Both the position numbers and the translations under genes were made by a program. This document shows positions 4,702 to 61,630 of a stretch of 64,000 bases of DNA, piece after piece (positions within the stretch are counted from its first letter, which is position 1; every line of letters starts with the position of its first letter). The stretch is from Candidatus Zhuqueibacterota bacterium (lineage in GTDB: Bacteria > Zhuqueibacterota > Zhuqueibacteria > Residuimicrobiales > Krinioviventaceae). The notes under the pieces are model-generated. The model worked only from the letters and a program-made list of their open reading frames with translations, did no database searches and was not told the origin of the DNA. The stretch spans positions 1-64,000 of the forward strand of contig JAFGSB010000097.1 in NCBI GenBank assembly GCA_016934825.1, read 5' to 3'.

Positions 4702-5718
4702 ATGGCTGAAATACAGGACATTTCCACAGCACAGCAAAAAAGACGGGCCAGTCTTTTAAAAAGGGCCAATGTTATCGGGCTCGGTATCGGGTACAAGGAA
4801 ACGGCCGGAAAAAGTACTGATGAATTGTCGCTAATGGTGCTTGTCCGTGAGAAGGAGGAATTAAAGGCTTTATCCAAAAAAGATATTGTCCCCGGAACCA
4901 TTGACGGCGTGCAGACAGATGTTCTCAAAGTCGGCAAGGTTGTCGCTTATCATTCGACAAGAGAACGTCACCGGCCCGCGTTTCCGGGGGTATCCATCGG
5001 ACATTTTGCAGCATATGCCGGTACGTTCGGTATGGTCGTCCGGGACGCGGTAACAAAGGAACGGCTGATTTTGTCCAATAATCATATCCTGGCAAATTGT
5101 AACAATGCTCAGGCAGGCGATCTTATTCTACAGCCGGCTCCTGCCGACGGCGGTAAACCCGGTTTCGACGACTTTGCCCGATTGGTTCGGTTTATCAAAC
5201 TGAAATACGACGGGGCTGAACCGGATAAGGAGAGCGAAAAAAAGTGTTTAATTTCAGAGATACTATCCGCTTTATTGAACATCGTCCCTGCTCTGTTCGG
5301 CTCCGGCACGCGCTTTGTTGCCGTTAAAAAGCAACCGATGAACGATCTGGACGCAGCTCTGGGCAGACCCCTGAACGAGAACGACATATCCGAAGATATT
5401 ATGGATATCGGCAGTGTGACCGGAATTACTGAAGCCTCTGCCGGGATGCAGGTCAAAAAAAGCGGCCGCACGACCGGATTGACCAGTGGTACGGTTAAAG
5501 TCATAAACGGTGAAATGCCAATCGATTATGCGGGCGATCGAAAGGCATATTTTCAACATCAAATATTAACCGGCGACATGACCGAACCGGGAGATTCCGG
5601 TTCGATATTGCTGGATCAGCACAATCGCGCTGTGGGATTGTTATGCGGCGGTTCCCAGTATGTCTCAGTTTTTAATCCGATCACCGTTGTAAAACAATAT
5701 TTAAATTTTGAAATCTAA
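4702..5718 (+). CDS. Trypsin-like (chymotrypsin-fold) serine protease
   Basis: A 338-residue protein with the catalytic triad of a chymotrypsin-fold peptidase: His128 (SNNHIL), Asp217 (DLDAAL) and Ser299 (EPGDSGS). There is no signal peptide, so it is probably cytosolic or leaves by another route. The N-terminal 90 residues (GLGIGYKETAGK, then LVREKEE) match the lead-in found in Nal1-like bacterial trypsin-like proteins. The insert between His and Asp (about 165-205) carries a hydrophobic stretch. Only 5 bp separate it from the kinase gene, so protease, kinase and regulator probably form one transcript. A role in processing a regulator is possible but unproven. Confidence 0.8.
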   Translation: MAEIQDISTAQQKRRASLLKRANVIGLGIGYKETAGKSTDELSLMVLVREKEELKALSKKDIVPGTIDGVQTDVLKVGKVVAYHSTRERHRPAFPGVSIGHFAAYAGTFGMVVRDAVTKERLILSNNHILANCNNAQAGDLILQPAPADGGKPGFDDFARLVRFIKLKYDGAEPDKESEKKCLISEILSALLNIVPALFGSGTRFVAVKKQPMNDLDAALGRPLNENDISEDIMDIGSVTGITEASAGMQVKKSGRTTGLTSGTVKVINGEMPIDYAGDRKAYFQHQILTGDMTEPGDSGSILLDQHNRAVGLLCGGSQYVSVFNPITVVKQYLNFEI

Positions 5719-5723
5719 CAACT

Positions 5724-7853
5724 ATGCCTTTATTCAGTTTAATAAATTTATTGGGTTTTGGATTCGGGACTGCGCTGGCAATCATTATATTCAGTTTAAC
5801 TTTAAAAAAGTCACCCAAGGAATATGATGATTATACTCTTGTCATATTATTAATCGCCTGCGCCTTTTGGTTTGGCGGCAATTTTTTTTCCCTGCTCCTG
5901 CATTTCCTTTTCGGTAATGTGTTATTGATTGAAAAGAACATTTTATTTTTTTCATACATTGGGATGGCCGTCATCCCATCCGCTCTTTTACACGCTCTTG
6001 CCGCGTTCTTTCATCGGGCGAAAATAAAGTCACGGTCTTTGTTACTTCATGCATTATTTATTGGATTAATTTATTTACCGTTTGTCGTTTTTTTATATGC
6101 GGGTATGAGTTATAATATCCGGCTTAATTCTCTTCATATTGTTATCACCGAATCATTTAAACTGGCTTTTTATATATGGATGCTGCTGGCAATCGGGTTT
6201 TCCATTATTATATCTGAAAATCTGGCCCGTACACATGAAATTGAGGCGGACCGCCACTTTTACCGGGATATTAGCATTTCTCTTGCCATTATCTGGATGG
6301 GTATCATTATTATTTATATTATCCCTTCCTATAAATTATCCTATGTCGGCAGATATTTAAATTTGTTCATGCTGTTGTCCCCGGTTTTTCCACTGGGAAT
6401 TTTAGCTTATTATGTATACAGATATAATTTTTACCGGCTTGTTGTCAAACCAAGTCTTGTATATTCCGTTATTTACGGCACGCTAATGGCCGTATATCTG
6501 TTAGGGATCAGAAGACTGGGTGAATATTTGAAACAATTTCCGGATGTCAATTCAACGCTTATTGAGGGAATTCTGCTCATTGCGCTGGTTTTTGCTTTTC
6601 AGCCGTTTCGCGAAGCTTTTCAGACCCGACTGGACAAGATATTTTTCAGAGATCGATATTTCTATCAGCAGATATTACGAGAGCTGTCTGATACAATTAT
6701 CGGAACGGTTGATCTTGAAAAATTATTGAATACAATCAGCGAAGCTTTGACATCCGCGTTTAAAGTCAAGTCACTAACAATGGTTGTGTTTCAATTAAAT
6801 GCCAAAAAACCTGAAATCTATAGAACCGTCGGTCACCCGGAGTTTAAAGATTTTTTGTCGCTGATAAACGCTTTTTCCGCGACCCGTAAACTGCGGTTAC
6901 GTCAGCAAATAAAAAATCATCGGGTCATCGCGGCCCTCGCACAAAATAATCTCGAATTGGCCGTACCGATTTTTTACCGGAACAAAATGATGGGCCTGGT
7001 CTGCCTTTCAGAAAAACAAACCGGCAATGCTTATTCCGAAGATGAAATCGATATGCTGCAAACATTTTCCAACCAGATCGCGCTTGCAGTTGAAAATGCC
7101 CGCCTCGTACAGGAAAGATTGAATCTTGAAGCCCGTGTATACCAGTCGGAAAAATTAAATTCGCTGGGGCAAATGGCAACTACAATGTCACACGAGATCA
7201 AGAATCCTCTTTCGTCGATAAAAAGTATTATCCAGGTTTTGCGTGAAAAAGCGGCCGGCGAGGTAGCTAATGACCTGGATGTCGTTATTGTTGAAATTAA
7301 TCGATTAAATTCGATACTTGAAAAGTTGTTAAGTTTTGCCCGGCCTTCGGAAGGTAGGATCGAATCCGTATCGATCCCGGAAATTATAAAAGACGTCATC
7401 GGGTTATTAAAATATCAGGCAAATAAATCGCAGATCAAGATAAATTATTCCGAACCCGGCATCAATGCGGTCATCAAAGCAAAGAAGCAATCCGTCCGCG
7501 AGATCATTTTCAATCTCGTTCTTAATGCCCTGCAATCCATAACAAATCACGGTGAAATAAATATATCCCTTGAAAATCAAAAGACCCCGGGCAAACTAAA
7601 AATGACGTCAAGGCGTATTGATTTCTACAGGGTAAAAAACTGGTATATTCTGACTGTAAAGGATAACGGACCGGGAATATCCGCTGAGAATCTGAATTAT
7701 ATATTTGATCCTTTCTTTACAACCAAAACGGTCGGAACCGGTTTGGGATTGTCAATTGTCAAACAGAATGTAGAAGAAGCCGGCGGCTTTATAAATATAA
7801 AAAGTGAGTTGAACAAGGGCACGGAATTTTCCGTTTACTTTCCAAATTATTGA
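5724..7853 (+). CDS. Membrane histidine kinase, 7-8 TM + GAF + HisKA/HATPase (PrsK-like layout)
   Basis: A 709-residue sensor kinase. Residues 1 to about 295 hold seven or eight membrane helices. About 315-460 is a GAF domain, then comes a HisKA dimerisation helix with phospho-acceptor His490 (SHEIKNP), and an NtrB-type ATPase with N box (NLVLNALQS), G1 (DNGPGI), F (FDPFFTTK) and G2 (GTGLGLSIV). All motifs look intact. It presumably senses a membrane or cytosolic signal and phosphorylates the response regulator encoded 10 bp downstream. The size and multi-TM/GAF arrangement resemble PrsK, the kinase tied to XrtA/EPS loci, but that is architectural similarity only. Confidence 0.9.
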   Translation: MPLFSLINLLGFGFGTALAIIIFSLTLKKSPKEYDDYTLVILLIACAFWFGGNFFSLLLHFLFGNVLLIEKNILFFSYIGMAVIPSALLHALAAFFHRAKIKSRSLLLHALFIGLIYLPFVVFLYAGMSYNIRLNSLHIVITESFKLAFYIWMLLAIGFSIIISENLARTHEIEADRHFYRDISISLAIIWMGIIIIYIIPSYKLSYVGRYLNLFMLLSPVFPLGILAYYVYRYNFYRLVVKPSLVYSVIYGTLMAVYLLGIRRLGEYLKQFPDVNSTLIEGILLIALVFAFQPFREAFQTRLDKIFFRDRYFYQQILRELSDTIIGTVDLEKLLNTISEALTSAFKVKSLTMVVFQLNAKKPEIYRTVGHPEFKDFLSLINAFSATRKLRLRQQIKNHRVIAALAQNNLELAVPIFYRNKMMGLVCLSEKQTGNAYSEDEIDMLQTFSNQIALAVENARLVQERLNLEARVYQSEKLNSLGQMATTMSHEIKNPLSSIKSIIQVLREKAAGEVANDLDVVIVEINRLNSILEKLLSFARPSEGRIESVSIPEIIKDVIGLLKYQANKSQIKINYSEPGINAVIKAKKQSVREIIFNLVLNALQSITNHGEINISLENQKTPGKLKMTSRRIDFYRVKNWYILTVKDNGPGISAENLNYIFDPFFTTKTVGTGLGLSIVKQNVEEAGGFINIKSELNKGTEFSVYFPNY

Positions 7854-7863
7854 ATAATCAGGT

Positions 7864-9279
7864 ATGAAAAACGAATCCAAAGCAAAAATATTAATCGTTG
7901 ATGATGAAAAAGCCGCCCGTTACGGCATAAAAAAAGCATTGTCAAAATCCAGGTATGTAATTGAAGAAGCGGAAAACGGGCGGATCGCGCTGGAAAAGAT
8001 TGGGAAGTTTAATCCAGATGTGATTCTCTGTGATATATATATGCCGGAAATGGACGGCCTGGAACTGGTTCGACATTTACAGAATACGGACAAGGAGAAA
8101 GCACTTTTACCACTGGTTATTGTGCTGACCGCTTTCGGCTCCGAAAAGATAGCCGTGGAAGCCATGAAAGCCGGCGCCTATGATTATTTGTCCAAACCCT
8201 TTGATATTGATGAGCTTCGTTTAATGGTCAACAAGGCCCTTGAAAAGATCAAACTGGGCCGGGAAAATATCCTGCTGCGGCAGCAATTGGGAGAACAAAC
8301 CAGGGGTGAAATCATCGGTAACAGCCCCCAAATAAACCAGGTAGTCAAAATGATTGAAAAAGTGGCCCGGGCGGATGTTACATTACTGTTAACGGGAGAA
8401 AGCGGAACAGGTAAGGAACTCGTCGCGAGAACGGTACATACAAATAGTCCCAGGGCGTCCGGCCCGTTTATTACGATGAATTGTGCCGCGATTCCCAAAG
8501 ACCTGGTTGAAAGCGAATTGTTTGGTCATGAAAAAGGCGCTTTTACCGGCGCCGTGCAGCAAAGGCAGGGTAAGTTTGAAGTTGCAAACAGCGGGACACT
8601 TTTCTTGGACGAGATCGCCGATATGAGTCTTGAGACTCAGGCTAAAATATTGAGAATTCTTGAAGAAAAATCTTTCACCAGGCTGGGCGGTAAGGAGTTG
8701 ATCAGCACCGATGTAAGGTTAATCAGCGCGACGAATAAAGACCTGAAATCGGAAATCGAACAGGGACGATTCAGAGAGGACCTGTATTACCGGATCAAAG
8801 TCGTTGAAATTCATCTTCCCGCTCTCAGGGAACGAAAGTCGGACATCATGTTGTTGGCAGTGCATTTTTTACAAAAGTACGCGGACAAACATGATAAAAA
8901 TGTAAAAAATATTGAGACTGCGGCATTGCAGGCCCTTTACAACCATGATTGGCCGGGTAACGTCAGGCAGCTTATGCATGTTATTGAACAAAGTGTCGTA
9001 CTGACAGATAAAAACGTCATTACTGTGGAATCACTGCCGCATGAAATTACATTAGGATCAAATCCTCAAAATTTTGCAGAGCTGACCGGCGAAATGTCCT
9101 TTTCGGCTGCAAAAGACAAAGCCGTAAAAGAATTTGAAAACAATATTATAGATCAGGCTTTGAAATCGACAGGGGGGAATATCAGCAAAGCGGCACGCAA
9201 GTTGAAAATGAAAAGACAGTTTTTACAGCAAAAAATTAAAAACCTGGGACTGGATATCAATAAATATAAAACATCCTGA
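7864..9279 (+). CDS. NtrC-family sigma54-dependent response regulator
   Basis: A 471-residue regulator with three domains. The receiver (1-125) has phospho-acceptor Asp57 (CDIYMPEMDG) and the DD pair at 13-14. The AAA+ activator domain (about 145-380) has Walker A GESGTGKE (178-185), the sigma54-contacting GAFTGA loop and Walker B LFLDEIADM. The C-terminal Fis-type helix-turn-helix (about 430-468) follows. With GAFTGA intact it should drive transcription from sigma54 promoters after phosphorylation by the upstream kinase. Two strong sigma54-type promoters are present at 39228 and 55809 in the EPS region, which makes EPS genes plausible targets. The gene ends at a shared bidirectional terminator. 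Confidence 0.95.
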   Translation: MKNESKAKILIVDDEKAARYGIKKALSKSRYVIEEAENGRIALEKIGKFNPDVILCDIYMPEMDGLELVRHLQNTDKEKALLPLVIVLTAFGSEKIAVEAMKAGAYDYLSKPFDIDELRLMVNKALEKIKLGRENILLRQQLGEQTRGEIIGNSPQINQVVKMIEKVARADVTLLLTGESGTGKELVARTVHTNSPRASGPFITMNCAAIPKDLVESELFGHEKGAFTGAVQQRQGKFEVANSGTLFLDEIADMSLETQAKILRILEEKSFTRLGGKELISTDVRLISATNKDLKSEIEQGRFREDLYYRIKVVEIHLPALRERKSDIMLLAVHFLQKYADKHDKNVKNIETAALQALYNHDWPGNVRQLMHVIEQSVVLTDKNVITVESLPHEITLGSNPQNFAELTGEMSFSAAKDKAVKEFENNIIDQALKSTGGNISKAARKLKMKRQFLQQKIKNLGLDINKYKTS

Positions 9280-38957: not shown

Positions 38958-39299
38958 TATTTTATAAAACATGTGCCGTTCTTAACAAGACGTACTCAAA
39001 ACGTCCAGCTTTCGTTGTTCTACCCTGGGACATGATTGTTTCGAGCTATAACAATGATAGTGTACAAGAACGGTATTTTTATGCCTCATTGCATTTTTGT
39101 TTTGTACACCTGTAATTTGTATCAGTTTATATGTTATTAAGTTCAATAAAAATAGAAATCAATTGGTTAAAATAACCCTTGGTGATATATATAATTCATC
39201 GGAAAAATAAGCAGGGATTTGTATTAATGGCATCAACTTTGCAAATTCAAAAAAGATAATAATGTATATAACACATTATACACAATTTCAGGGAATTGC
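38958..39299. other. 342-bp gap upstream of the EPS operon
   Basis: No credible gene. It holds a sigma54-type promoter near its right end (listed separately). Two widely spaced inverted repeats may be upstream activator sites or chance: CCGTTCTT (38976-38983) with AAGAACGG (39066-39073), and GTGTACAA (39060-39067) with TTGTACAC (39102-39109). Confidence 0.5.
39228..39243 (+). promoter_or_regulatory. Sigma54 (RpoN)-type -24/-12 promoter before the EPS operon
   Basis: TGGCATCAACTTTGCA matches the sigma54 consensus TGGCAC-N5-TTGCW with correct spacing: GG at 39229-39230 and GC at 39241-39242, ten bases between. The start point would be near 39254, about 45 nt before the STAS gene. A sigma54 activator is encoded at 7864-9279. 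Confidence 0.7.
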
Positions 39300-40025
39300 A
39301 TGGAAGGTATTGATAAAAGTATACACAAAATAGGCGTTTTAAAAGATATCACATTATTGCGGGTAAGCGGGTATATTGACACAACAACATCTCCTGAATT
39401 ACAAAAGGTAATCGCCGAGGAAATTAACAACGGCAGCAATCAGTTTATTATTGATTTGGGAGGTGTCCATTATGTGAGCAGCGCCGGATGGGGAATATTT
39501 GTGGGAGAAATTCGCGGCTTGCGGGAAAAAGGCGGTGACCTGAAAATTGCTCAAATGACTCCCGACGTTTTTGAAGTATTCGAAATGTTAGAGTTTAATC
39601 GAATTTTAACCTGTTATGACGCAATTGAGGAAGCTATCGATGATTTTGATTTTTGCCGCGGTTTACAGATAAATTCGCCTCGTAACGGGTCGCTGGCTGA
39701 TATTTTGGAAAATGAAACAAATGTAAGAAAGTTCGAGCACGACAGCGCGACTCCAAGACGTATGGAAAAGGGATCAGCGGCTCCCAAATCAACATCATTC
39801 GCAAAAAGAAAACAAAATATTGATGTCGCGGACCTTCCCGTCACTGAAAAAATAAAGAAAATAGTTGTCGAAAATCCAATGCTGAACATTTGGAGCATAA
39901 AAAAAATACTGTACTCCGAAAGATTCGGATTTACGAAAATTGGATTTTTCAAGTTGCGCACAAATTTAAAAAAAATGGGTTTAGATACGAAAGCGAAAAG
40001 ATATCGTTATTATCGTTCCCGGTAA
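39300..40025 (+). CDS. STAS-domain regulator fused to a C-terminal basic (winged-helix-like) domain
   Basis: A 241-residue protein. Residues 1-115 are a STAS domain of the anti-sigma-factor-antagonist type. The segment YVSSAGWGIF places Ser61 where SpoIIAA-like proteins are phosphorylated. A charged linker (about 120-175) leads to a basic C-terminal domain (about 178-241) with a helix pattern like a small winged helix (LPVTEKIKKIV, SIKKILYSERFGF, FFKLRTNLKKMGL). I do not recognise this fusion from a named family. As the first gene of the EPS operon it probably controls its expression or activity by partner switching. Confidence 0.8.
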   Translation: MEGIDKSIHKIGVLKDITLLRVSGYIDTTTSPELQKVIAEEINNGSNQFIIDLGGVHYVSSAGWGIFVGEIRGLREKGGDLKIAQMTPDVFEVFEMLEFNRILTCYDAIEEAIDDFDFCRGLQINSPRNGSLADILENETNVRKFEHDSATPRRMEKGSAAPKSTSFAKRKQNIDVADLPVTEKIKKIVVENPMLNIWSIKKILYSERFGFTKIGFFKLRTNLKKMGLDTKAKRYRYYRSR

Positions 40026-46851: not shown

Positions 46852-47592
46852 TTGAGCGCCAATAAAAATCATTACAGTTATTCTCTGTATGCTGAAACAG
46901 AATTTGCCAGTGAATATGAGCGCGAACGATTCGGTACCGGATTTGGAACCTTTTTAAAAATCTATGAAGTTGATTTGTATGATAAATTGATACCTTCCTT
47001 TACCCGGATGCTGGACGTCGGCGCGGGTACGGGCAAATTATCGTGCCATTTTGCGAAAAGGGGATATGTTGTCGCTTCGGACGCTTCGTTACAAATGTTA
47101 TTGAACGCCCGTAAATTAGCCGCCAGGCAGAACATTAAATATGATGCGGTTGTCTGTGACGCCCATTTCCTTTGTTTTAAGGAAAATTCATTCGACGCCG
47201 TCGTATCGTCCAGGGTTCTCATGCACCTGGTGGATTGGAAAAAAGCTGTTAATGAATTCTGCCGGGTTTCCAGTCAGTCGGTGACGCTGGATTTTCCAAA
47301 TTACTGGAGTATCACTATATTCGAGCGGATTTTCAGAAAATTTATAAAAAATTTTTTTACCCGTGTACAAAGCTATCGCGGCTTTTTAGGGAAAACGGTA
47401 GTCAGGGAATTCGGATACAATAATTTTATTTTACGGGTAAAATTGAAAAGTTTTGTATTACCGGTTGCGGTATACCGGTTGTTGAATTCTCCGAAATTCG
47501 CATTAAAGTGTGAAAGTTTTTGGGGAAAGACCGGCTTAACCCGTCTGTTTGGAACACCCATAACAATAAATTTTGAAAGGCGGTCAAATTAG
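46852..47592 (+). CDS. Class I SAM-dependent methyltransferase
   Basis: A 246-residue cytosolic methyltransferase with SAM-binding motif I LDVGAGTGKLS, the acidic motif II (VVASDAS), and DAVVSSRVLMHLVDWKKA. TTG at 46852 is chosen because of a TGAGGTAA ribosome-binding site just upstream and because no ATG lies before the conserved core. In this position it probably methylates a sugar or lipid-linked glycan, but this is context inference. Confidence 0.83.
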   Translation: MSANKNHYSYSLYAETEFASEYERERFGTGFGTFLKIYEVDLYDKLIPSFTRMLDVGAGTGKLSCHFAKRGYVVASDASLQMLLNARKLAARQNIKYDAVVCDAHFLCFKENSFDAVVSSRVLMHLVDWKKAVNEFCRVSSQSVTLDFPNYWSITIFERIFRKFIKNFFTRVQSYRGFLGKTVVREFGYNNFILRVKLKSFVLPVAVYRLLNSPKFALKCESFWGKTGLTRLFGTPITINFERRSN

Positions 47593-47596
47593 GTTT

Positions 47597-49279
47597 ATGA
47601 AAAGGGATTTAGGACATATAACTGGAAAAGAGTATGATCTGTTGATCATTGGCGGCGGCATGTACGGCTCTACCCTGGTATGGGAAGCCGTTTCCAGGGG
47701 GCTATCCGTTGCGTTAATTGAAAAAGAGGATTTCGCATCGGCAACATCCGGGAACAGCCTGAAAATCATTCACGGCGGTCTGCGGTATTTGCAGTCTCTG
47801 GATTTTAAACGAATGCTGGAATCCATTCGCGAGCGTAAAATCCTGCTAAAAATTGCCCCGCATCTTGTTCATCCATTACCCTGTCTGATGCCGACTTTTG
47901 GCATGACCATGAAAAGCAAGCATGTAATGCTGGCCGGAATGATAATGAACGATCTGATCAGTTTTAACCGAAACAAAGGCAGTGATCCGCAAAAACGTAT
48001 TCCCAACGGCAGGGTCATCTCAAAGCAAGAGTGTGAAAAGCAATTACCGGTTTTGAAGGAGAATTTTTTTACCGGAGCGGCCCTGTGGAACGATGCCCAG
48101 GCTTATAATACGGAAAGACTTGTCCTGTCCTTTGTTATGTCGGCGGCGCAGAGGGGCGCGGATGTTTTCAATTACGTCGAGGTCACGGATTTTCTGAAAA
48201 ACGGATCAAAGGTGACCGGCGTAAAAGCAAAAGATAATCTGACCGGTCAGGAGTACGAAATTAAAGCCAAGATGATCGTGACCACGGCCGGTCCCTGGAC
48301 AAATAAATTAACCACTGTGTTGTCGGGTCATTCGGCTGATAACAAATTTATTCTATCAAAGGCCATCAACCTGATTTTAAAACGAAAAATTGCGCGGGAT
48401 TACGCTTTCGGGATTTCCAGCCCAATCGAGTTCCGAAACGGGAAAAAATATGACCGGCAGAAAAGGAGGCTGTTGTTTGTAACACCCTGGCGCGATTATA
48501 CGGTTGTTGGCACTTCTCATTTGCCTTACGACGGTGAAACGAATGATTTCAAAATCAGCGAAAACGATGTCCAGGATTTGTTAATGGAACTAAACGAGAT
48601 TATGCCGGAAATCAACCTGGAGAGAAAAGACGTTACTTTCGTTCATGGTGGAGTACTGCCTCTGTCCCGGCAGCCGGAAGAAGGAAAAGACGTACAACTA
48701 TTACCCCATTACCGGATTGTCGATTTTCACAAAGAAACAGGAATTGACGGCATCATCAGCGTGGTGGGTGTAAAATATACAACCGCCCGTGATGTTGCGG
48801 AAAAAACGATGGACCTGGTGACAAAAAGAACCGCCGCGGACTCTATGGCTTTTTCAACCCGCACGGAACCCATATATGGCGGAGCAATTGAAGATTTTCA
48901 ATCCTTTATAAACGGGGCAATCAATAACAACGATACGGGATTACCCGAACCGGTTTTCAGACAGCTTTTATATAATTACGGACAGGAATACAAAAAAATA
49001 ATCGATTTAATAAGGGAAAAACCGGAGCGAGCCGAACGGGTGGCCAAGACGACAAATGTTATAAAAGCGGAAATCATACACGCGGCCCGTAATGAATTCG
49101 CGCAAAAACTGTCGGATGTCGTATTGCGGCGGACGGAACTGGGCTCCGGCGAATGTCCGGGTGATGACGGTTTGAGATCCTGCGCCGATATTTTGGCAAG
49201 CGAGTTAGATTGGGATGAACATCGGATCCGGTCGGAGATTGAAGAGGTTAAAGCAAAGTACAGATACAGGCCCTTATGA
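47597..49279 (+). CDS. FAD-dependent glycerol-3-phosphate dehydrogenase/oxidase family protein
   Basis: A 560-residue flavoenzyme of the GlpD/GlpA type. It has an N-terminal FAD-binding IIGGGMYGS, the characteristic LKIIHGGLRYLQ, the GVKYTTARDVAE segment and a C-terminal helical domain. The family oxidises glycerol 3-phosphate to dihydroxyacetone phosphate at the membrane. Sitting inside an EPS cluster is unusual, so it may act on another substrate. The ATG at 47597 is preferred over an in-frame TTG at 47573 that would overlap the methyltransferase gene. Confidence 0.85.
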   Translation: MKRDLGHITGKEYDLLIIGGGMYGSTLVWEAVSRGLSVALIEKEDFASATSGNSLKIIHGGLRYLQSLDFKRMLESIRERKILLKIAPHLVHPLPCLMPTFGMTMKSKHVMLAGMIMNDLISFNRNKGSDPQKRIPNGRVISKQECEKQLPVLKENFFTGAALWNDAQAYNTERLVLSFVMSAAQRGADVFNYVEVTDFLKNGSKVTGVKAKDNLTGQEYEIKAKMIVTTAGPWTNKLTTVLSGHSADNKFILSKAINLILKRKIARDYAFGISSPIEFRNGKKYDRQKRRLLFVTPWRDYTVVGTSHLPYDGETNDFKISENDVQDLLMELNEIMPEINLERKDVTFVHGGVLPLSRQPEEGKDVQLLPHYRIVDFHKETGIDGIISVVGVKYTTARDVAEKTMDLVTKRTAADSMAFSTRTEPIYGGAIEDFQSFINGAINNNDTGLPEPVFRQLLYNYGQEYKKIIDLIREKPERAERVAKTTNVIKAEIIHAARNEFAQKLSDVVLRRTELGSGECPGDDGLRSCADILASELDWDEHRIRSEIEEVKAKYRYRPL

Positions 49280-49302
49280 AATTAAAAGCTACAGGATAAA
49301 AC

Positions 49303-50301
49303 ATGGCAAAAACAGCGCTGGTTACCGGGGCGTCCGGATTTACCGGCGGATATATGGTTAAAAATTTACTGGATCATGGATATCAGGTGCGGGCCTTTGT
49401 CCGTAAGACCAGTAATACGGCTGAATTGAAAAAATTACCGGTCGAACTGGCTTATGGTGACATATGCTCATTCGCGGATGTTGAACCGGCTTTGAAGGGT
49501 GTGGATATAGTTTTCCACATTGCGGCGCTTTACAGGGCCGCAAATCTTCCGGATAAAACATATTTTGATGTAAATGTGAACGGAACGGAAAATATACTCA
49601 GGGCCGCTCTGGAGCACAATGTAAAACGGGTGGTATATTGCAGTACGGTTGGGGTGCATGGTCATGTAGAGAATCCGCCGGCAAATGAAACAGCCCCGTT
49701 TCATCCCGGTGACATATACCAGGTCACCAAAGTGGAGGCGGAAAAACTGGTTATGGAATATTACCGGCTGAAAAAGTTGCCGGTCACCATAGTTCGCCCC
49801 TCGGGAATTTATGGCCCGGGCGACCTGCGCATGCTAAAGATGTATCGTATGGTGGAAAAGAAAAGATTCCTGATGCTGGGGAGAAACGACCCGTTTTACC
49901 ATTTAACATTTGTAACGGATATTGTTGAAGGTTTTCGGCTGGCAGGGGAAAATCCGGATGCGGCGGGACAGGCATATATTATTGCCGGCGATGGATATGG
50001 CACGTTAAAACAGTTCGCAAAGACGATCGCGGATGATCTGGGGATTAAATTTTATGTTATTAAACTGCCGTTATGGCCGGTTTATTATTTGGGTTTTTTA
50101 TGTGAAAAAATTTGTGTACCTTTAAGAATCCAGCCGCCCATATTCCGAAGAAGAGTGGATATTTATCTTAAAGACAGAGCGTTTGATATCAGTAAAGCCA
50201 AAAAAGAACTGGATTTTCAACCACTGGTCGATATCAGGGAAGGAATTCACCGGACAGCCGATTGGTATATAAAGGAAGGTTATTTAAAACCAAGAAATTG
50301 A
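49303..50301 (+). CDS. NAD(P)-dependent epimerase/dehydratase (HpnA-like extended SDR)
   Basis: A 332-residue extended SDR with TGASGFTGGYM, the VYCSTVGVHG Ser segment, and catalytic YQVTK. The general character is of the sugar-epimerase/dihydroflavonol-reductase-like group that includes HpnA. The substrate is not predictable. It lies 23 bp after the glycerol-phosphate-type dehydrogenase and 21 bp before an acyltransferase. A second SDR of the same kind is at 53532-54521. Confidence 0.82.
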   Translation: MAKTALVTGASGFTGGYMVKNLLDHGYQVRAFVRKTSNTAELKKLPVELAYGDICSFADVEPALKGVDIVFHIAALYRAANLPDKTYFDVNVNGTENILRAALEHNVKRVVYCSTVGVHGHVENPPANETAPFHPGDIYQVTKVEAEKLVMEYYRLKKLPVTIVRPSGIYGPGDLRMLKMYRMVEKKRFLMLGRNDPFYHLTFVTDIVEGFRLAGENPDAAGQAYIIAGDGYGTLKQFAKTIADDLGIKFYVIKLPLWPVYYLGFLCEKICVPLRIQPPIFRRRVDIYLKDRAFDISKAKKELDFQPLVDIREGIHRTADWYIKEGYLKPRN

Positions 50302-50322
50302 GGTTTTAATGAGGGATATATT

Positions 50323-51063
50323 ATGGCGAGCGATTCTCCTGTAGGGATCCAACATGATTTGCATGATCCGCAAGTCGGCAAGGTCGGCAAGTATCAGAAC
50401 CTGGTCGTGGGTAAAAAGGGGGTGTGGTCACTTTTAAAATATGAAATAATCGCGATGCTGTGCGCGAACATGCCCGGAGCGCTGGGTTTATTATTGCGCA
50501 GCAAGCTCTATCCGCGGCTGTTAGGCGCTTCCGGCAGAAACGTGAACTTCGGGATGAATGTTGTATTGCGCCATCCACATAAAATCAAGATCGGAGATAA
50601 TGTCGTCATAGATGATAACTGTCTGCTCGACGCCAAGGGTTCGGACAATAACGGGATTGTTTTAGGCTCCGGTACATTCATAGGACGAAATACCATATTG
50701 AGCTGTAAAAACGGCGATATCGAGATTGGTGAAAACGCGAATATCGGGTTTAATTGTGAAATTTTTTCGGCAAGTAAAGTCGTTTTGGGTAAAAATGCCC
50801 TGTTCGCGGCCTATTGTTATCTTATCGGCGGTGAACATACATTTGACCGCACCGATGTTTCAGTACTTGAACAGCAGCGCACATCCGCGGGCATTAAAGT
50901 GGGTGACAATGTCTGGCTGGGAGCGGGGGTGAAAGTCAATGACGGCGCTTCAATCGGCCGTGATTCCATTATCGGGACATCGGCAGTGGTGCGGGGAAAT
51001 ATCCCGGAATACAGCATAGCTGTTGGTATCCCCGCCAAGGTCATAAAGAGCCGGAAAAAATAA
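50323..51063 (+). CDS. Left-handed beta-helix acyltransferase (hexapeptide repeat)
   Basis: A 246-residue protein. A short N-terminal extension with a hydrophobic helix (about 40-65, IIAMLCANMPGALGLLL) is followed by hexapeptide repeats from about 75 to the end (IKIGDNVVIDDNC, IEIGENANIGFNC, IKVGDNVWLGAGVKV, IPAKVIK). Such enzymes O- or N-acylate sugars with acetyl-CoA. The LIGGEHTF loop holds a plausible catalytic His. It ends the first run of EPS genes; a 185-bp gap with small GC-rich hairpins (51091-51107, 51155-51168) follows. Confidence 0.85.
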   Translation: MASDSPVGIQHDLHDPQVGKVGKYQNLVVGKKGVWSLLKYEIIAMLCANMPGALGLLLRSKLYPRLLGASGRNVNFGMNVVLRHPHKIKIGDNVVIDDNCLLDAKGSDNNGIVLGSGTFIGRNTILSCKNGDIEIGENANIGFNCEIFSASKVVLGKNALFAAYCYLIGGEHTFDRTDVSVLEQQRTSAGIKVGDNVWLGAGVKVNDGASIGRDSIIGTSAVVRGNIPEYSIAVGIPAKVIKSRKK

Positions 51064-51248
51064 AAAACAATTGTTTTGTAATATTTATTGATCCCGTCTC
51101 CCGGGATGTAACCTTGTTATGTCATTTGATAAATCCGGAAACGTTTTAATGTCCCGGTTTGAAAACCGTTAATAGTACCGAATACGTGCATTTATGGCAT
51201 AATATATGTATACGTTCATAAAAATCAATTATTTCTGGAAAGAGAGCA

Positions 51249-52382
51249 TTGGACAATTCAAAATATAATATACTGCATGTTATTGATAAATACTCGATGG
51301 ACGGTATCAATCCCAGCAGCTGCGCCTATTTGATCCGTGACTGGTTTCGTTACTCGGATAAGAGCCGGTTTAACGTGATGACCTGCGGTCTCAAGAAGGA
51401 GGAGCCGGCCGGCGAGATATATAAACAGGAAGGCATGAGGGTATTTTTTTTAGGTAACGGCAAGTACTCTGTCGGTAATGTTACGGGTCTGATAAAACTT
51501 GTTGACCGGGAAAAGATTGATCTGCTGCATTTGCATGGCTATAGTTCCGCGAATTTTGGCAGAATAGCCGCACGGGAAAAAGGGATCCCGAATATTGTAC
51601 ACGAACATGCCATATTGAAAATTTTGCCGCATCAGTATCTTGCCGATTTTTTATTGCGGAAAATGACGGATTCCGCAATTGGCGTTTCCGGGGCGGTAAA
51701 GGAGTTTTTAAGTAAAGGGCGGCATGTCCCGGCCGAACTGATAAAAATTGTCTATAACGGCGTCAATCTGGAAAAGTTCCAAAAGTGCGGTCAGGAAACG
51801 CTGGCAAATTTACGCAGGGAATTTTCTTTACAAAAAGACAATATTATTATTGGCGCATTGACCAGACTGCGGGAAGAAAAAGGAAATGAATATTTAATTA
51901 GGGCTATGCCTGCTGTGATTGAAAAATATCCGGCCGTGAGATTATTGATCGCCGGTGACGGCCCCCTTAAAGAGAAGCTGGAAAGCCTGGTCAGGGAACT
52001 GGGTCTGGAAAAACACGTTTATCTTATCGGTTTTCGCACCGATGTTCTTGACCTGCTTACCTTGTTCGATATTGTTGTTATTCCTTCTTTAAACGAGGGC
52101 TTTGGTCTTGTTATGGTTGAGGCAATGGCAATGGAAAAACCAATCGTCGCGACAAAGGTCGGCGGTTTAATTGAAATAGCCGGTGGTACAGACAGTGCGG
52201 TATTTGTTCGACCCGGAAATTCCCGCGAACTGTCGGACGGCCTGATCAGCATGATAACGGATCCCGAAAAAGCAAAAAAAATGGCACAAATCGGATTGCA
52301 GGAAAGTGCACGATTCAGTATACAAAAGAATGTGGAAAAACTTGAAGAACTTTACGTACATATGCTTGGAAATGGGAAATAA
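51249..52382 (+). CDS. Glycosyltransferase family 4
   Basis: A 377-residue GT-B retaining glycosyltransferase: N-terminal ILHVIDKYSMDGINPSSC, middle IGALTRLREEKGNEYL, and the donor-site E-x7-E motif NEGFGLVMVEAMA followed by EKPIVATKVGG. The start is TTG at 51249, supported by the AAAGAGAG just upstream and the lack of an earlier ATG. It begins a second group of glycan genes after a 185-bp gap. Confidence 0.88.
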   Translation: MDNSKYNILHVIDKYSMDGINPSSCAYLIRDWFRYSDKSRFNVMTCGLKKEEPAGEIYKQEGMRVFFLGNGKYSVGNVTGLIKLVDREKIDLLHLHGYSSANFGRIAAREKGIPNIVHEHAILKILPHQYLADFLLRKMTDSAIGVSGAVKEFLSKGRHVPAELIKIVYNGVNLEKFQKCGQETLANLRREFSLQKDNIIIGALTRLREEKGNEYLIRAMPAVIEKYPAVRLLIAGDGPLKEKLESLVRELGLEKHVYLIGFRTDVLDLLTLFDIVVIPSLNEGFGLVMVEAMAMEKPIVATKVGGLIEIAGGTDSAVFVRPGNSRELSDGLISMITDPEKAKKMAQIGLQESARFSIQKNVEKLEELYVHMLGNGK

Positions 52383-52494
52383 ATTTTGTATAATAATGTA
52401 AACGATAAAAAAGTCCGGCCGCCAATTGATAATGATTTTTATTTAATAAATTGGAAAACCAGTTCAGGCAATTAAAAAATATGAGGTTTTATTG

Positions 52495-53520
52495 ATGAAA
52501 GCAGCAGTAGTCGGTTGCGGAAATATTTCCAGGTTTCATTTTAACAGTATTATTACAAATCCCCTGGCCGAATTGACGGCAATTTGTGATGTAAACGGTG
52601 GTTTGGCGGAAAGTAGAGCGAAACAATACGGATTAGAGAAATATTACACCAGTATTGATGAACTGTTGAAAAAAGAAAATATCGACGTTCTGCATGTTTT
52701 AACACCTCCGAAATATCATAGTGAAGTTGCGGTCAAAGCATTGAATAAAGGCATACATGTTCTGGTCGAAAAACCGATGGCAACAAATGTTAAGGAAGCG
52801 GACGATATGATAAAAGCCGCGGAGGCCAATAATGTCAAATTATGTGTGAATCATAACATGTTGTTCGACCCGACTTTTTTAAAAACCAGGGATATTGTCA
52901 ACAGTTTTGAGTTCGGCGATCTGTTACATGCGGACGCTTATTTTGCTTTTGATACGCGTCGCGTGATTGGCAACCGGGGACTTGAGGGCACATGGTTCAG
53001 GGAGTTGAAAGGACATTTTTTACAGGATTTGTTGCCCCATCCTGCCTGTATGTTATTGGAATTTATGCGCGATTTTGAAAAATCTTTCATTATCAGGAAG
53101 GAACTGGGCGGAAATGACAAACTAAAGCAAGAAGTCCGGGTTTTGCTTGATTCGAAAAAAACGACCGGTTCGATTACATTGTCGTTGTCCACACATCCCG
53201 ATATTTTTACGTTAAACCTGTACGGTACAAAAATGGTTTTAAAAATTGATTTGTCAAATATGAGCATAGTAAGGCAAAAACCCTATAATATTCCAAAAGC
53301 GATTGCGCGGGGAGTTGATAATTTATCCCAATCGTTTCAGATTATGGGTAATACGATAAAAATGACATGCGGCATTGTTTTAAAACGGACATCAGCTTCA
53401 GGCGGTATGGGGAATTTGATCAATGCATTTTACACCAGTCTGGATAAAGACTGGCCGGTTCCTGTAAGCGGCGAAGACGCAAAAAAAATTGTTGAATTAT
53501 CAGAAAAAATTTGGAAATAA
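52495..53520 (+). CDS. Gfo/Idh/MocA-family sugar oxidoreductase
   Basis: A 341-residue NAD(P)-dependent oxidoreductase with a Rossmann fold (AAVVGCGNISRFH), the family signature VLVEKPMATN and a C-terminal alpha/beta substrate domain. Enzymes of this family often oxidise UDP-sugars (WbpB-like) in EPS and O-antigen pathways. Here the acting substrate is unknown. ATG at 52495 is used; a TTG directly before it would add one residue. Followed after 11 bp by an SDR gene. Confidence 0.86.
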   Translation: MKAAVVGCGNISRFHFNSIITNPLAELTAICDVNGGLAESRAKQYGLEKYYTSIDELLKKENIDVLHVLTPPKYHSEVAVKALNKGIHVLVEKPMATNVKEADDMIKAAEANNVKLCVNHNMLFDPTFLKTRDIVNSFEFGDLLHADAYFAFDTRRVIGNRGLEGTWFRELKGHFLQDLLPHPACMLLEFMRDFEKSFIIRKELGGNDKLKQEVRVLLDSKKTTGSITLSLSTHPDIFTLNLYGTKMVLKIDLSNMSIVRQKPYNIPKAIARGVDNLSQSFQIMGNTIKMTCGIVLKRTSASGGMGNLINAFYTSLDKDWPVPVSGEDAKKIVELSEKIWK

Positions 53521-53531
53521 AGGAGCAAAGA

Positions 53532-54521
53532 ATGAAAGTTCTGGTAACCGGCGCCGCCGGTTTTTTAGGCAGCCGTCTTGTTGAAGTGCTGGTCGATAAA
53601 AAGTACCAGGTTAAAGCTCTTGTCAGACAGCAGAGTAATAAAACATTACTGGAAAAACTGCCGATTGAAATTTTTACCGGTGACCTGGCTGATAAAGAAT
53701 CCCTTAACGGAATAATGGAGGGCGTGGATACGGTGATCCACGCAGGCGCAACAACATTTGGAACTTTTGAGGAACAGAAACGCGGTACGATTGACGGGAC
53801 CCGTTATATGCTTGATCTGGCAATTGAAGCCGGCGTGAAAAAATTTATATACATCAGTTCTCTTGTAGTATATGATATGAACAGTATCCCAAAAAATTCG
53901 CTGATAAATGAAAGCTTTGAACTTGAACGCCACCCCGAGATGGCCGGCCCTTATGCCTATACGAAAACCAAAAGTGAACAGATTGTCCAGGAATATATAA
54001 AAAATACCGATATGCCTATCACCATTGTACGTCCGGGCCTGATATATGGCGCAAGGCGAAATATGTTCTTTCCGCATCTTGGGTTTTCCGCTCTTGGCGG
54101 CAGGATTATTCTTAAAATCGGTTGTGAGAAAAAACTGCTGCCCATGACTTATATCTATAATACCTGTGAAGTGATTATCCGGCTGTTGCACCATGACAAG
54201 GGGAATGGCAGGATATATAATATCATCGATCCCAAAACAATCACCTATTCTCAATATTTGAAATACTATTTACGAGCCGTGGGCTTGAAAAGCATTGTTA
54301 TTCCCATACCCTTTAGCATGCTAAAACTGGCCGGATTTGTTTTTGAACAGTTGAACAAGCTGCCCAAACTTCGCGGAAAATTCGGATTGACAAGATATCG
54401 GTTGAATACGAAATTCAAAAAAGTCCGGTATGACGGCTCGCTTGTTTTGAAAGAATTAAAATGGTACCCCGAATTGTCCATGGATGAATCATTGGAGCGG
54501 GCATTTCATGTCGATAAATAA
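53532..54521 (+). CDS. NAD(P)-dependent epimerase/dehydratase (extended SDR)
   Basis: A 329-residue SDR with VTGAAGFLGSRL, the IYISSLVVYD Ser segment and catalytic YAYTK. The ATG at 53532 is decided by the AGGAG ribosome-binding site at 53521-53525; the frame is open further upstream into the previous gene. It is similar in type to the SDR at 49303-50301 (both open with the same strand and a LPVEL/LPIEI segment), suggesting paralogy. Likely a nucleotide-sugar enzyme for the glycan made here. Confidence 0.84.
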   Translation: MKVLVTGAAGFLGSRLVEVLVDKKYQVKALVRQQSNKTLLEKLPIEIFTGDLADKESLNGIMEGVDTVIHAGATTFGTFEEQKRGTIDGTRYMLDLAIEAGVKKFIYISSLVVYDMNSIPKNSLINESFELERHPEMAGPYAYTKTKSEQIVQEYIKNTDMPITIVRPGLIYGARRNMFFPHLGFSALGGRIILKIGCEKKLLPMTYIYNTCEVIIRLLHHDKGNGRIYNIIDPKTITYSQYLKYYLRAVGLKSIVIPIPFSMLKLAGFVFEQLNKLPKLRGKFGLTRYRLNTKFKKVRYDGSLVLKELKWYPELSMDESLERAFHVDK

Positions 54522-54556
54522 TAATCGATACATTAAATTTTACCTTCCAAAACCTG

Positions 54557-55564
54557 ATGCCAAAAATAAATAACAGGGTGATAAAATTTTTCAGCAGAAT
54601 GGTCCTGAGCGGGGCTATCCTGCTTTATCTGCTCAGTAAAATTGATATTGAGGTTGCCAGGACAACCCTCGGCTCCCTCAAATATAAATATTTACTGCTG
54701 GCGTTGATTCCGATTTTGATCGAATTGATCCTGAAATCTTATAAATGGCAGATGCTGTTACAGGTCAAGTATATTAAGGTGCCGTTCTTTCAGATATTCA
54801 AGATATATTATATCAGCAGTTTTATCGGTATGTTTTTACCATCCAGTCTGGCTATAGATCTGCTGAGAACATACAGTTTGTCGCGGTACATCAAGAATAC
54901 ACATGATTCCGTATCCACAGTTTTTGTGGACCGGCTTTTGGGTGTTCTGTCTCTTGTCTTTGTTGTTTTGATAGGCATTTTAGCAGTCAAGACCAATTTT
55001 ATTAATAACACGGTTCAGCTTGTTATTACCATACTCGTGTCACTGTTTATATTGTTTAGCTGCATTATTTTGTCACGATATGTTATTGTTTTTTTTGAAT
55101 GGGTGTTGAAAAAATGCAAGTTTAGTCACTTAAAAATTGAAAAATATACAAACCTGCTGCATAGAATTTATCAATCCATAATTGATTTCAAGAACAATAA
55201 AATTGAAGTCTTTAAAGTATTCCTTATCTCAATTTTTTTCCAATTCAACCGTGTAGCCATTTCCTATGCGGTCGCGTTATCTTTTAATCTTAACATCAGT
55301 TTTAAATACTGGGTTATCATCGTACCGCTGGTAACATTGGCGACAATGCTGCCGCTGGCGATCGGCGGTATCGGTGTGAGAGAGGGCGCTTTTGTTTTCT
55401 TTTTAAGCCAACTGGGCGTTTCCATTTCCACTGCATTTTTATTATCCCTGACTACTTTTTTACTTGTTGTGATTACCTCATTACCCGGTTTCGGATTTTA
55501 TTTAATGTATGGTTTGTCCATAAAAAGGATCGAGGAAGACCAGTTTGAGAAGCTCCGTGAATGA
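54557..55564 (+). CDS. Lysylphosphatidylglycerol-synthase TM-region family membrane protein
   Basis: A 335-residue polytopic membrane protein with about eight helices and the family features GMFLPSSLAIDLLRTY, VFVDRLLGVLSLV and LPLAIGGIGVREGAFVFFL. This large family is often encoded with glycan or polyprenol enzymes and is thought to flip or shuttle lipid-linked molecules, although most members are uncharacterised. A paralogue lies at 61631-62659. It ends the second gene group, before a 345-bp gap. Confidence 0.85.
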   Translation: MPKINNRVIKFFSRMVLSGAILLYLLSKIDIEVARTTLGSLKYKYLLLALIPILIELILKSYKWQMLLQVKYIKVPFFQIFKIYYISSFIGMFLPSSLAIDLLRTYSLSRYIKNTHDSVSTVFVDRLLGVLSLVFVVLIGILAVKTNFINNTVQLVITILVSLFILFSCIILSRYVIVFFEWVLKKCKFSHLKIEKYTNLLHRIYQSIIDFKNNKIEVFKVFLISIFFQFNRVAISYAVALSFNLNISFKYWVIIVPLVTLATMLPLAIGGIGVREGAFVFFLSQLGVSISTAFLLSLTTFLLVVITSLPGFGFYLMYGLSIKRIEEDQFEKLRE

Positions 55565-55909
55565 CCATAATTATAATAATAACAATATTGAAATTGGGGA
55601 CATACATGACCCAAAATTGCAACATTTATGAAATTTATATGGGGCATTTGGGGGATAATTGAGAAATGAATATTTCTTTTTAATCGGGGCGTTATGAACA
55701 GGTATTTGTTAGTACGTTAAGTCCATTAAAAACAATATGTTGTTGTTTTGACGGGGTCCCATCTTTTTTTAAATTTATAATAAATTGTGTAATATACATT
55801 TTATAAAGTGGCATAGTGATTGCTAATTATAAGAACGTATAATCTTATATTTTTTAGACATGTATAGATAAAAATATTATTTTTCCCCACAATTAGATGG
55901 AGTTATTTC
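55565..55909. other. 345-bp gap with sigma54-type promoter
   Basis: No credible gene. AT-rich, with a sigma54-type promoter at 55809-55824 (listed separately). A GGGG-ACATACATGA-CCC segment near 55598-55614 could be an activator site or chance. I see no intrinsic terminator for the preceding gene. Confidence 0.5.
55809..55824 (+). promoter_or_regulatory. Sigma54 (RpoN)-type -24/-12 promoter before the secreted glycosidase-like gene
   Basis: TGGCATAGTGATTGCT fits the sigma54 consensus with GG at 55810-55811 and GC at 55822-55823, ten bases between, the same spacing and the same TGGCAT start as the promoter at 39228. The start point would be near 55835, about 75 nt before the ATG. Confidence 0.7.
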
Positions 55910-57520
55910 ATGGTATTTGAAAATTTCCGCACTTTGAAGAGTTATATAATATTATGTACCATTTCTTTTCTATTATTGTTTACGGTCACTCAAGATGCTC
56001 TTGCGCAATTGGAAGTATTCGACAAAAATCCAAATTATTTAACTTACAATGGGGAACCCATTTTACTGATGTGCTCGGTGCCAAATGGTCAGGATTTTCA
56101 TGTAATGGATTTTGATATCAATTTTATCACCCAGATGAAAAATTACGGAGGCAATCATATCTGGGTCATGATCGAAAATTTTACCGCGATAAAATGGAGT
56201 TATACAAAAAATACCCCTGACGCCTTTTATGACAAAATCGGCGCCATAGCCCGGGTCGCTTATGAAAATGATGTTATTTTTGGAATTTCATTGTTTGGAT
56301 ACGGTCTGGTGCGTTATCCCTGGAATTTTTCTTTCAATGCAGCGTGCAGTACTCATTGTGGTAACGATCCCGGTCCGCTCAAGGACCCCATGGATTTTTA
56401 TGATGCAACCTCTAACGATTCTGCCGTTGTCGCTGCCAGAGATGTGCAAAAGACAATCATGAGAAAAATAATTGAACGAACCTGGCAATACCCGAATGTG
56501 TATTATAGTCCCGGCTGGGAAATTAAGGTAATCTGGAATTATAAGGTTGCCGAATGGTTCAAGTGGGCAACCGATTATATGGAAGATCAGGGCCATATAA
56601 TCAATCCGAATATCGATCATTTGTTTGCAATTGAAAAAACTATGGACCCGATGGAAGCCTTTAAAGTCGGAGCTGATTTTGTCATTGATGAAGACGGCAA
56701 CGCATACAAAAGTGAAGGAATTCCATTTGTGTATTGGAGTATGGATGGAGTTTACCGGGGATTGGATTTCTGGAACCAGGATGAACTGGAGCCGACGCGC
56801 AACTGGGATTTTATGCGTGAGGAACTCATATCCGGCGCAGCAGGTTTGGCAACAATTTGGGGGGTTGATCCGGAGGAGGAGGATTATATGCAAAGCCTGG
56901 CAAACTTTGCAAGTACAGTTGAAAACTGGTGCGACGAACCGGGACAGGAAATTACCAATGCAACAGTCCCCCTGACTTATAATGTAGCCGGAACAGATCT
57001 ACCGGGCTCCAATGATTGTGAGGATATAACCGATTACAGCAGTTTTCAAATTTCAAATATTAACGTATCATCGGGCCGTGCTTATGTCCAGGATTTTAAT
57101 GTCAATATAAACCGGCCTTTTTATATTGACAGAACCTATACCGTCGCATATATTCCTCCTGATTACCGGGGATTAATATGGCTTAAAACGGCTAATGATG
57201 ATAAGAGAAATGAAGATGCAAACTTTATGTCTTATACTGTGAATCAGGATGTTACTGTCTACGTTGGATATGATACACGTATTGCAGTGAAACCCGGCTG
57301 GTTACAGTCCTGGACATCTACCCAGGATTATATTACCGATGATACCGGGGTGGAATTTGAATTGATGCAAAAAGATTTTACTAAAGGGACAATAACTCTC
57401 GGTTCGAATCAGGGCAGCAGCGGCAGTATGTATATAATTCTTCACATGCCCACAGGTGAAGTGGATTTGTCACCGCCGGCTCCGCCTCAGGGTATATATC
57501 TACGGACTTTGTTTGAATAA
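55910..57520 (+). CDS. Secreted glycoside-hydrolase-like protein with C-terminal beta domain
   Basis: A 536-residue protein with a signal peptide (about 1-33, ending DALAQ). Residues 35-350 look like a TIM-barrel glycosidase of the DUF4038/GH140-like kind (NYLTYNGEPILL, NHIWVMIENF, YYSPGWEIKVIW with a Glu in the WEI motif, IPFVYWSMDGVY). The second half (about 390-520) is a beta-rich module with FYIDRTYTVAYIP, TANDDKRNED and VYVGYDTRI, a pattern I know from other extracellular bacterial proteins. It may trim or bind the exopolysaccharide. The catalytic acid/base pair is not certain. Confidence 0.75.
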   Translation: MVFENFRTLKSYIILCTISFLLLFTVTQDALAQLEVFDKNPNYLTYNGEPILLMCSVPNGQDFHVMDFDINFITQMKNYGGNHIWVMIENFTAIKWSYTKNTPDAFYDKIGAIARVAYENDVIFGISLFGYGLVRYPWNFSFNAACSTHCGNDPGPLKDPMDFYDATSNDSAVVAARDVQKTIMRKIIERTWQYPNVYYSPGWEIKVIWNYKVAEWFKWATDYMEDQGHIINPNIDHLFAIEKTMDPMEAFKVGADFVIDEDGNAYKSEGIPFVYWSMDGVYRGLDFWNQDELEPTRNWDFMREELISGAAGLATIWGVDPEEEDYMQSLANFASTVENWCDEPGQEITNATVPLTYNVAGTDLPGSNDCEDITDYSSFQISNINVSSGRAYVQDFNVNINRPFYIDRTYTVAYIPPDYRGLIWLKTANDDKRNEDANFMSYTVNQDVTVYVGYDTRIAVKPGWLQSWTSTQDYITDDTGVEFELMQKDFTKGTITLGSNQGSSGSMYIILHMPTGEVDLSPPAPPQGIYLRTLFE

Positions 57521-57527
57521 AATGATT

Positions 57528-57552
57528 GCTTTCCGTCTTTTTGACGGAAAGC
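57528..57552 (+). terminator. Hairpin after the secreted protein gene (probable terminator)
   Basis: A perfect 10-bp stem GCTTTCCGTC (57528-57537)/GACGGAAAGC (57543-57552) with a TTTTT loop lies 8 bp after the stop codon. The following bases are AAAATGTTG before a T-rich stretch, so the T run is delayed. Confidence 0.6.
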
Positions 57553-57767
57553 AAAATGTTGTTTTTATTTTAGCAAAAATATCTTACCTTTTATCAAATC
57601 AACTTGATCCCCAATGATTGATTTTATCGCAAGGGAATTATATTCTGTTTCCAGATTCCGGAAACGGAATGTTCGATAATTCCGGCTTGCATTTTTACGT
57701 AAATTATATTTATTGTGTGTAATTTATATTTAATAATAAAACCAAATTATCATTTAATATAAATATA

Positions 57768-61404: not shown

Positions 61405-61451
61405 AATGATTTAAGCAGTTTTGGACTAAAATTTGCAATTCACCCGAAATT

Positions 61452-61481
61452 AAAAGCATGTCGAATTTTTGACATGCTTTT
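61452..61481 (+). terminator. Intrinsic terminator after the GT2 gene
   Basis: An 11-bp stem AAAAGCATGTC (61452-61462)/GACATGCTTTT (61471-61481) encloses an 8-nt loop. The A-rich start and T-rich end suggest it can work in both directions. Confidence 0.75.
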
Positions 61482-61630
61482 GTGTATAATTCTGTATTAT
61501 TTTTACTGTCCGAATTTAAAAGAATTGATCGAAATCATTTTACGCAAAAATCGGTATATGATTGTATCTTTAATGTTGTGTAAATAGTTATAAAATTATG
61601 ACTTATATTGTTTGATTGAAAATAAAAAAT

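Follow-up and report, generated by a model that had tools for sequence, protein, structure and literature searches.

The probable second promoter of the EPS locus and its gene

The window, by which we mean the whole 64-kb stretch of DNA analysed, comes from an uncultured bacterium related to candidate division KSB1 and contains an EPS locus whose first gene encodes a STAS-domain (anti-sigma-antagonist-like) protein (39300..40025, + strand). Further along the same strand, a 345-nt gap at 55565-55909 (gap 2) separates a flippase-like (LPG_synthase_TM) gene (54557..55564, + strand) from a gene for a 536-aa protein with a signal-peptide-like N-terminus (55910..57520, + strand). The initial annotation described gap 2 as the only other long gap of the region beside the one in front of the STAS gene (gap 1, 38958-39299, 342 nt). 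These two are indeed the longest, but the gaps 57521-57767 (247 nt) and 61405-61615 (211 nt) are also of considerable length.

The 16-mer at 55809..55824 on the + strand, TGGCATAGTGATTGCT, matches TGGCAYN5TTGCW, the sigma54 core consensus, exactly. Its GG and GC lie ten bases apart in the arrangement TGGCAY-N5-TTGCW, and the site is intergenic and directed towards a gene, the start codon of which is preceded by GGAG. Across both strands of the window there are only two exact matches, this one and TGGCATCAACTTTGCA at 39228..39243 (+ strand), both intergenic and oriented towards a same-strand gene, with 85 and 56 nt, respectively, between site and start codon. As initially annotated, the two have in common the TGGCAT start and the GG-N10-GC spacing. 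Matches with up to two mismatches numbered 53 in the window against 55 expected, so that only the exact ones are informative. With dinucleotides preserved, 5 of 20000 shuffles of gap 2 and 15 of 20000 of gap 1 contained an exact + strand site. Two further sequences were left unclaimed: TGGCATAATATATGTA at 51195, in the gap 51064-51248, is devoid of the GC, and TGGACTAAAATTTGCA at 61422 keeps GG and GC and departs from the consensus elsewhere.

The genome to which the window belongs (5.39 Mb in 179 contigs, 95% complete) encodes the machinery to read such sites. Lack of rpoN had been named as what would speak against a sigma54 promoter; the gene is present, with one Sigma54_DBD match (E 9e-61), and the domain was found in 58 of the 60 relatives searched, own genome included. 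Sigma54_activat matches number 35, of which 28 have E values below 1e-20. Exact TGGCAYN5TTGCW sites occur 23 times genome-wide, compared with 5 for the reversed control pattern, and TGGTAYN5TTGCW sites 15 times, compared with 7. By a simple ORF rule, 30 of the 38 TGGYAYN5TTGCW sites are intergenic.

A terminator-like hairpin of 12 pairs (57526..57554, + strand; it also reads as a - strand terminator) follows the 55910-57520 gene directly past its stop codon at 57520, and the gene therefore probably makes a one-gene transcript. Its product had been called a secreted glycosidase-like protein. The signal-peptide-like N-terminus agrees with the first part of this description, but the protein matches no curated family: searches of Pfam, NCBIfam and PDB sequences gave no match, and a PDB profile search returned two matches at chance level only. 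An AlphaFold model built on a two-row alignment gave no usable fold (mean pLDDT 40.9). Residues of about 390-530 recur class-wide, with matches in 47 of 60 genomes that mostly cover this part, and three genomes (G031, G039 and G019) have proteins that align with the N-terminal domain. The distant relative in G019 matches Apiosidase PF13204 weakly (E 0.003, below the cut-off), and two Glu of the barrel-like region (E204 and E242 in the window protein) are invariant in a five-row alignment. We infer that the N-terminal domain is distantly like apiosidase-type TIM-barrel proteins; 'glycosidase-like' would then be a reasonable guess, but not more than that.

Conservation of the second promoter was followed through its gene. 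Full-length matches to the 536-aa protein were found in 2 of 63 genomes of the class, own genome included; three more were weak and partial. The only other full-length carrier, G013, is a member of the same order but of a different family, and its protein is about 48-50% identical over the alignment. Seven genes upstream of it match the window genes 47573 to 55564 in order, with 51-71% identity, so that the flippase-like gene is the upstream neighbour there as well. The G013 gap holds an exact sigma54 core, TGGCATAAATATTGCA (14 of 20000 shuffles of that gap), 300 nt before the predicted start codon and with a short ORF in between. Outside the core the two gaps were not found alike, and G013 is not in the top eight local matches of gap 2. 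Conservation of the 55809 site is thus read from one pair, the own genome and G013; locus L115 (contig JAFGEC010000232.1) is the same DNA as G013/L056 and was counted once. The stretch from G001, a genome of the same genus, consists of N at 25,001 of 40,000 bases and was unusable for gap 2.

Scanning 13 other EPS loci over 7 to 40 kb, with the masked bases of G001 limiting the scan there, revealed no second exact sigma54 site. The site upstream of the STAS gene was exact in 10 of these loci, had one mismatch in 2 and was missing from G004; a single TGGTAT site, upstream of a 924-aa protein, was found in the EPS locus of G020. Since no second exact site occurs in these 13 loci, the second predicted promoter travels with its gene and not with the EPS locus.

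The predicted first promoter and its tandem palindromes

The core at 39228 forms the first predicted -24/-12 promoter of the EPS locus, as indicated by the exact match, the shuffles and the orthologue loci. We fetched 30 STAS loci, out of 60 genomes with a match. The best upstream site was exact in 19 of them, had one mismatch in 10 and two mismatches in 1; GG and GC were both kept in 26 of the 30, and the spacer was partly kept in many (TGGCAYYAACTTTGCW). A motif search upstream of the STAS genes revealed two tandem palindromes with the consensus TGTTTCA-N3-TGAAACA after symmetrising. In the window these palindromic, activator-like sites are TGTTCTACCCTGGGACA (39016..39032, + strand) and TGTTTCGAGCTATAACA (39037..39053, + strand), in gap 1 only.

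A promoter was located in 29 loci, and dropping L088, with 93 nt upstream only, left 28 with at least 200 nt upstream. The palindrome score was at least 13 in all 28 and the tandem was present in 27, figures that are descriptive and not an independent test, as the 17-nt model was trained on the scored STAS gaps and scores within the set are circular. A score of 6 was reached by 68 of 580 shuffles. L093, which lies outside the 29 loci because its gene start was mislocated, carries a sigma54 site with one mismatch.

The exact tandem pattern was found in 12 of 63 genomes, once in the own genome, at 39016. It lies close upstream of the STAS gene in 9 of the 12, and in three genomes of family f12 it stands ahead of partner-switch-type regulatory genes. 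This arrangement hints at a common regulator for a partner-switch module and the EPS STAS gene. At L133, L134 and L135 (genomes G052, G034 and G046) the tandem precedes a GAF/phosphatase-like gene or an anti-sigma-kinase-like and STAS pair, and no exact sigma54 core was found between tandem and gene at these three loci.

The STAS protein itself has a C-terminal extension of more than 100 aa that ends in a conserved basic segment. Extension and STAS part occur together in 60 of 60 relatives searched, in nearly all of which the best match runs from residue 1 or 2 to 241. Some 30 kb ahead of the EPS locus, the region 4702-9279 encodes a sensor kinase (5724-7853) and an NtrC-type activator (7864-9279), and in G001 and G015 a relative of this activator shares the contig with the STAS gene at a similar distance. 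A role of this activator as reader of the palindromes is not supported, because the palindrome is also present in genomes that have no close relative of it, such as G010, G014, G016 and G018 of family f2. Close relatives (E below 1e-130) were found in 11 of 25 genomes, a count that may miss divergent copies.

Features shared and not shared by the two gaps

The initial annotation proposed one sigma54 regulon covering EPS assembly and the secreted enzyme, and suggested looking for an upstream activator site present in both gaps. Sigma54 promoters are expected to have such a site, usually a dyad, 80-250 nt upstream. The tandem palindromes of gap 1 score 19.0 and 12.8, whereas the best scores are -1.1 in gap 2, a value that 71% of shuffles reach, and -0.2 in the G013 gap; the pair is thus absent from both, and on these model scores the gap 1 palindrome was rejected as an activator site of gap 2. 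In the 1.5 kb upstream of 55809 the best match (7.5, at 54475) is intragenic and unremarkable. The inverted repeats listed for gap 2 include no convincing dyad.

What the two gaps do have in common is an A-rich element of the pattern TTAAGTYCAWTAAAAAYA. In gap 2 it reads TTAAGTCCATTAAAAACA (55717..55734, + strand), the first base lying 92 nt 5' of the 55809 core, and in gap 1 TTAAGTTCAATAAAAATA (39137..39154, + strand), 91 nt 5' of the 39228 core. It is conceivable, though we doubt it, that one enhancer-binding protein drives both promoters via this element, with EPS assembly and the secreted enzyme increasing in step. The two copies are identical at 15 of 18 positions, a similarity equalled at nearly the same offset by 1 of 200 shuffles, but by 3 of 40 once any offset is allowed. 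They are the only exact matches in the 5.39-Mb genome, albeit to a pattern that was written from them, and with up to two mismatches there is no genome-wide excess (26 matches against 27 for the reversed control). The 73-74 nt from the end of the element to the core fall inside the 32-92 nt described for PEP-CTERM genes (PMC1569441), yet the element is not a dyad. The gap 1 copy recurs at -79 in G001 (one mismatch) and at -73 in G011 (two mismatches), but the G013 gap is without it (best match with 6 mismatches). Of the 26 matches, six are no more than about 100 nt away from exact sigma54 sites: the two defining copies, and four more distributed over L005 (twice), L007 and L018 (before grpE), three sigma54-like sites at which distances and orientations differ; 20,669 intergenic positions elsewhere gave a single match with up to two mismatches. 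This association test has few cases and is in part post hoc. Since three more sigma54-like sites have the element too, it may belong to sigma54 promoters in this genome generally, as an accessory, rather than mark a regulon. The single-regulon claim is only partly supported, its most specific test, a common tandem activator site, being negative. In a genome with 23 exact sites and dozens of activators, a pair of sigma54 sites in the same locus is not enough by itself to make one regulon.

For the second site itself, the core and its position, the presence of rpoN and of activators in the genome and the conservation in G013 together with the gene order make a sigma54 promoter ahead of the signal-peptide-like gene the best reading, as had been annotated from the start. 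It would be an ordinary-looking promoter, well supported by comparison, and we consider it likely that 55809-55824 is the -24/-12 promoter from which one gene inside the EPS locus is transcribed by itself. We infer the use of the site, its start site, its activator and the enzymatic function of the product as follows. At 55809-55824, sigma54 RNA polymerase would form a closed complex that awaits an enhancer-binding ATPase. The RNA would begin some 12 nt beyond the GC of the core, cover the gene for the secreted enzyme-like protein and end at the hairpin behind it. The activator would probably differ from the reader of the tandem palindromes at the first EPS promoter, and the A-rich element at -92 would serve sigma54 promoters of this genome in general as an accessory element, perhaps by bending DNA.

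We regard it as improbable that the core is a chance match and that the 55910 gene depends on a sigma70-type promoter or on transcription running through from the EPS operon. Gap 2 does contain sigma70-like matches, such as TTGACG-16-TAAATT at 55748-55775 (9 of 12), in a region with 15 such matches against 9.9 in shuffles, which is a weak excess. Read-through would be helped by the absence of any listed hairpin between 55564 and 55809 and by the common direction of all genes from 39300 to 62659. However, an exact core is rare in shuffles of gap 2, and the G013 gap has kept one together with the gene. Intragenic and orphan sigma54 sites can act as silent or repressive sites elsewhere. A site at 55809 that binds sigma54 polymerase and is mainly silent or repressive would suit the lack of a recognisable activator site within the 244 nt upstream, but it is a very improbable reading given the ordinary promoter geometry, with the start codon 85 nt away behind a GGAG and a single gene that ends in a hairpin. 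With the 55809 site read as a promoter, it can be predicted from sequence, and put to the test, how a polysaccharide locus and a secreted enzyme are turned on in an uncultured group of phylum rank. It also separates what the two gaps share, namely sigma54 cores and an A-rich element at equal distance, from what they do not, the conserved tandem activator site.

Comparison with known sigma54-linked EPS systems

Sigma54 promoters before EPS-linked genes are already known from PEP-CTERM genes and from the syp locus. As Haft et al. 2006 describe them, PEP-CTERM genes are EPS-linked and mostly form single-gene operons behind long non-coding gaps, in which a 17-nt motif and a 32-92 nt spacer precede a -24/-12 motif (PMC1569441). 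The 55910 gene resembles them in being EPS-linked, in its single-gene arrangement and in the long gap with an upstream element and a -24/-12 core (PMC1569441). However, its product ends in ...LRTLFE and has no Pro-Glu-Pro sorting tail, and the A-rich element is unlike the PEP-CTERM motif described there, the 3' end of which is TTTACA (PMC1569441). Scanning the activator and the kinase of the window for PrsR and PrsK placed both below the cut-offs, the nearest activator scoring 417 against a PrsR cut-off of 502.6 bits.

In the published account of the syp locus of Vibrio fischeri, the STAS gene sypA stands at the head, several sigma54 promoters are present, and all four operons carry binding sites for the NtrC-type activator SypG, which is encoded in the locus (PMC4517449, PMC10804989). 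The EPS locus described here is likewise headed by a STAS gene and contains more than one predicted sigma54-type promoter, and an NtrC-type activator is a further point in common (PMC4517449, PMC10804989). Unlike in syp, tandem palindromes are found at the first promoter only, and the EPS locus includes no activator gene, the sole Sigma54_activat match on the contig lying at 8311-8814.

The pepA gene of Aquincola tertiaricarbonis is described as an RpoN-dependent secreted-protein gene linked to EPS and flocs, with a TGGCAC -24 box and a mapped start site (PMC9850573). The likeness consists in a -24 box of the same type before a secreted-protein gene tied to EPS. PepA, however, is a PEP-CTERM protein of a proteobacterium with experimental support (PMC9850573), whereas the 55809 promoter is predicted from sequence and comparison. 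Among the literature matches listed there was no paper naming KSB1 or Zhuqueibacterota together with sigma54, RpoN or exopolysaccharide.

On a wider scale, Francke et al. 2011 present sigma54 as a controller of the bacterial exterior, a statistical theme across phyla (PMC3162934). EPS and envelope genes tied to sigma54 promoters are in line with it, although our data come from a single genome of an uncultured group and a crude signal-peptide rule (PMC3162934). In this genome, 30 genes start no more than 330 nt downstream of a sigma54-like site, and 20 of them encode a signal- or membrane-like N-terminus, compared with 30 of 133 control ORFs, by a home-made, crude hydrophobicity rule (Fisher p about 1e-5). 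This secreted or membrane bias fits the published theme. We would go further only speculatively, to a scheme that we regard as unlikely: sigma54 would be the main surface and secretome switch of this uncultured class, and a group-specific A-rich TTAAGTYCAWTAAAAAYA about 40-90 nt upstream, read by a DNA-binding or DNA-bending protein, would couple the EPS operon and the enzyme gene despite different dedicated activators.

Elsewhere in the same genome, a secreted glycosidase-like gene (GHL10, PF02638) lies behind an exact sigma54 core on contig C86 (L010). On contig C128, exact sigma54 cores lie 59-71 nt upstream of the start codons of both a dnaK-like and a grpE-like gene (L017 and L018), an arrangement that is unusual for heat-shock genes.
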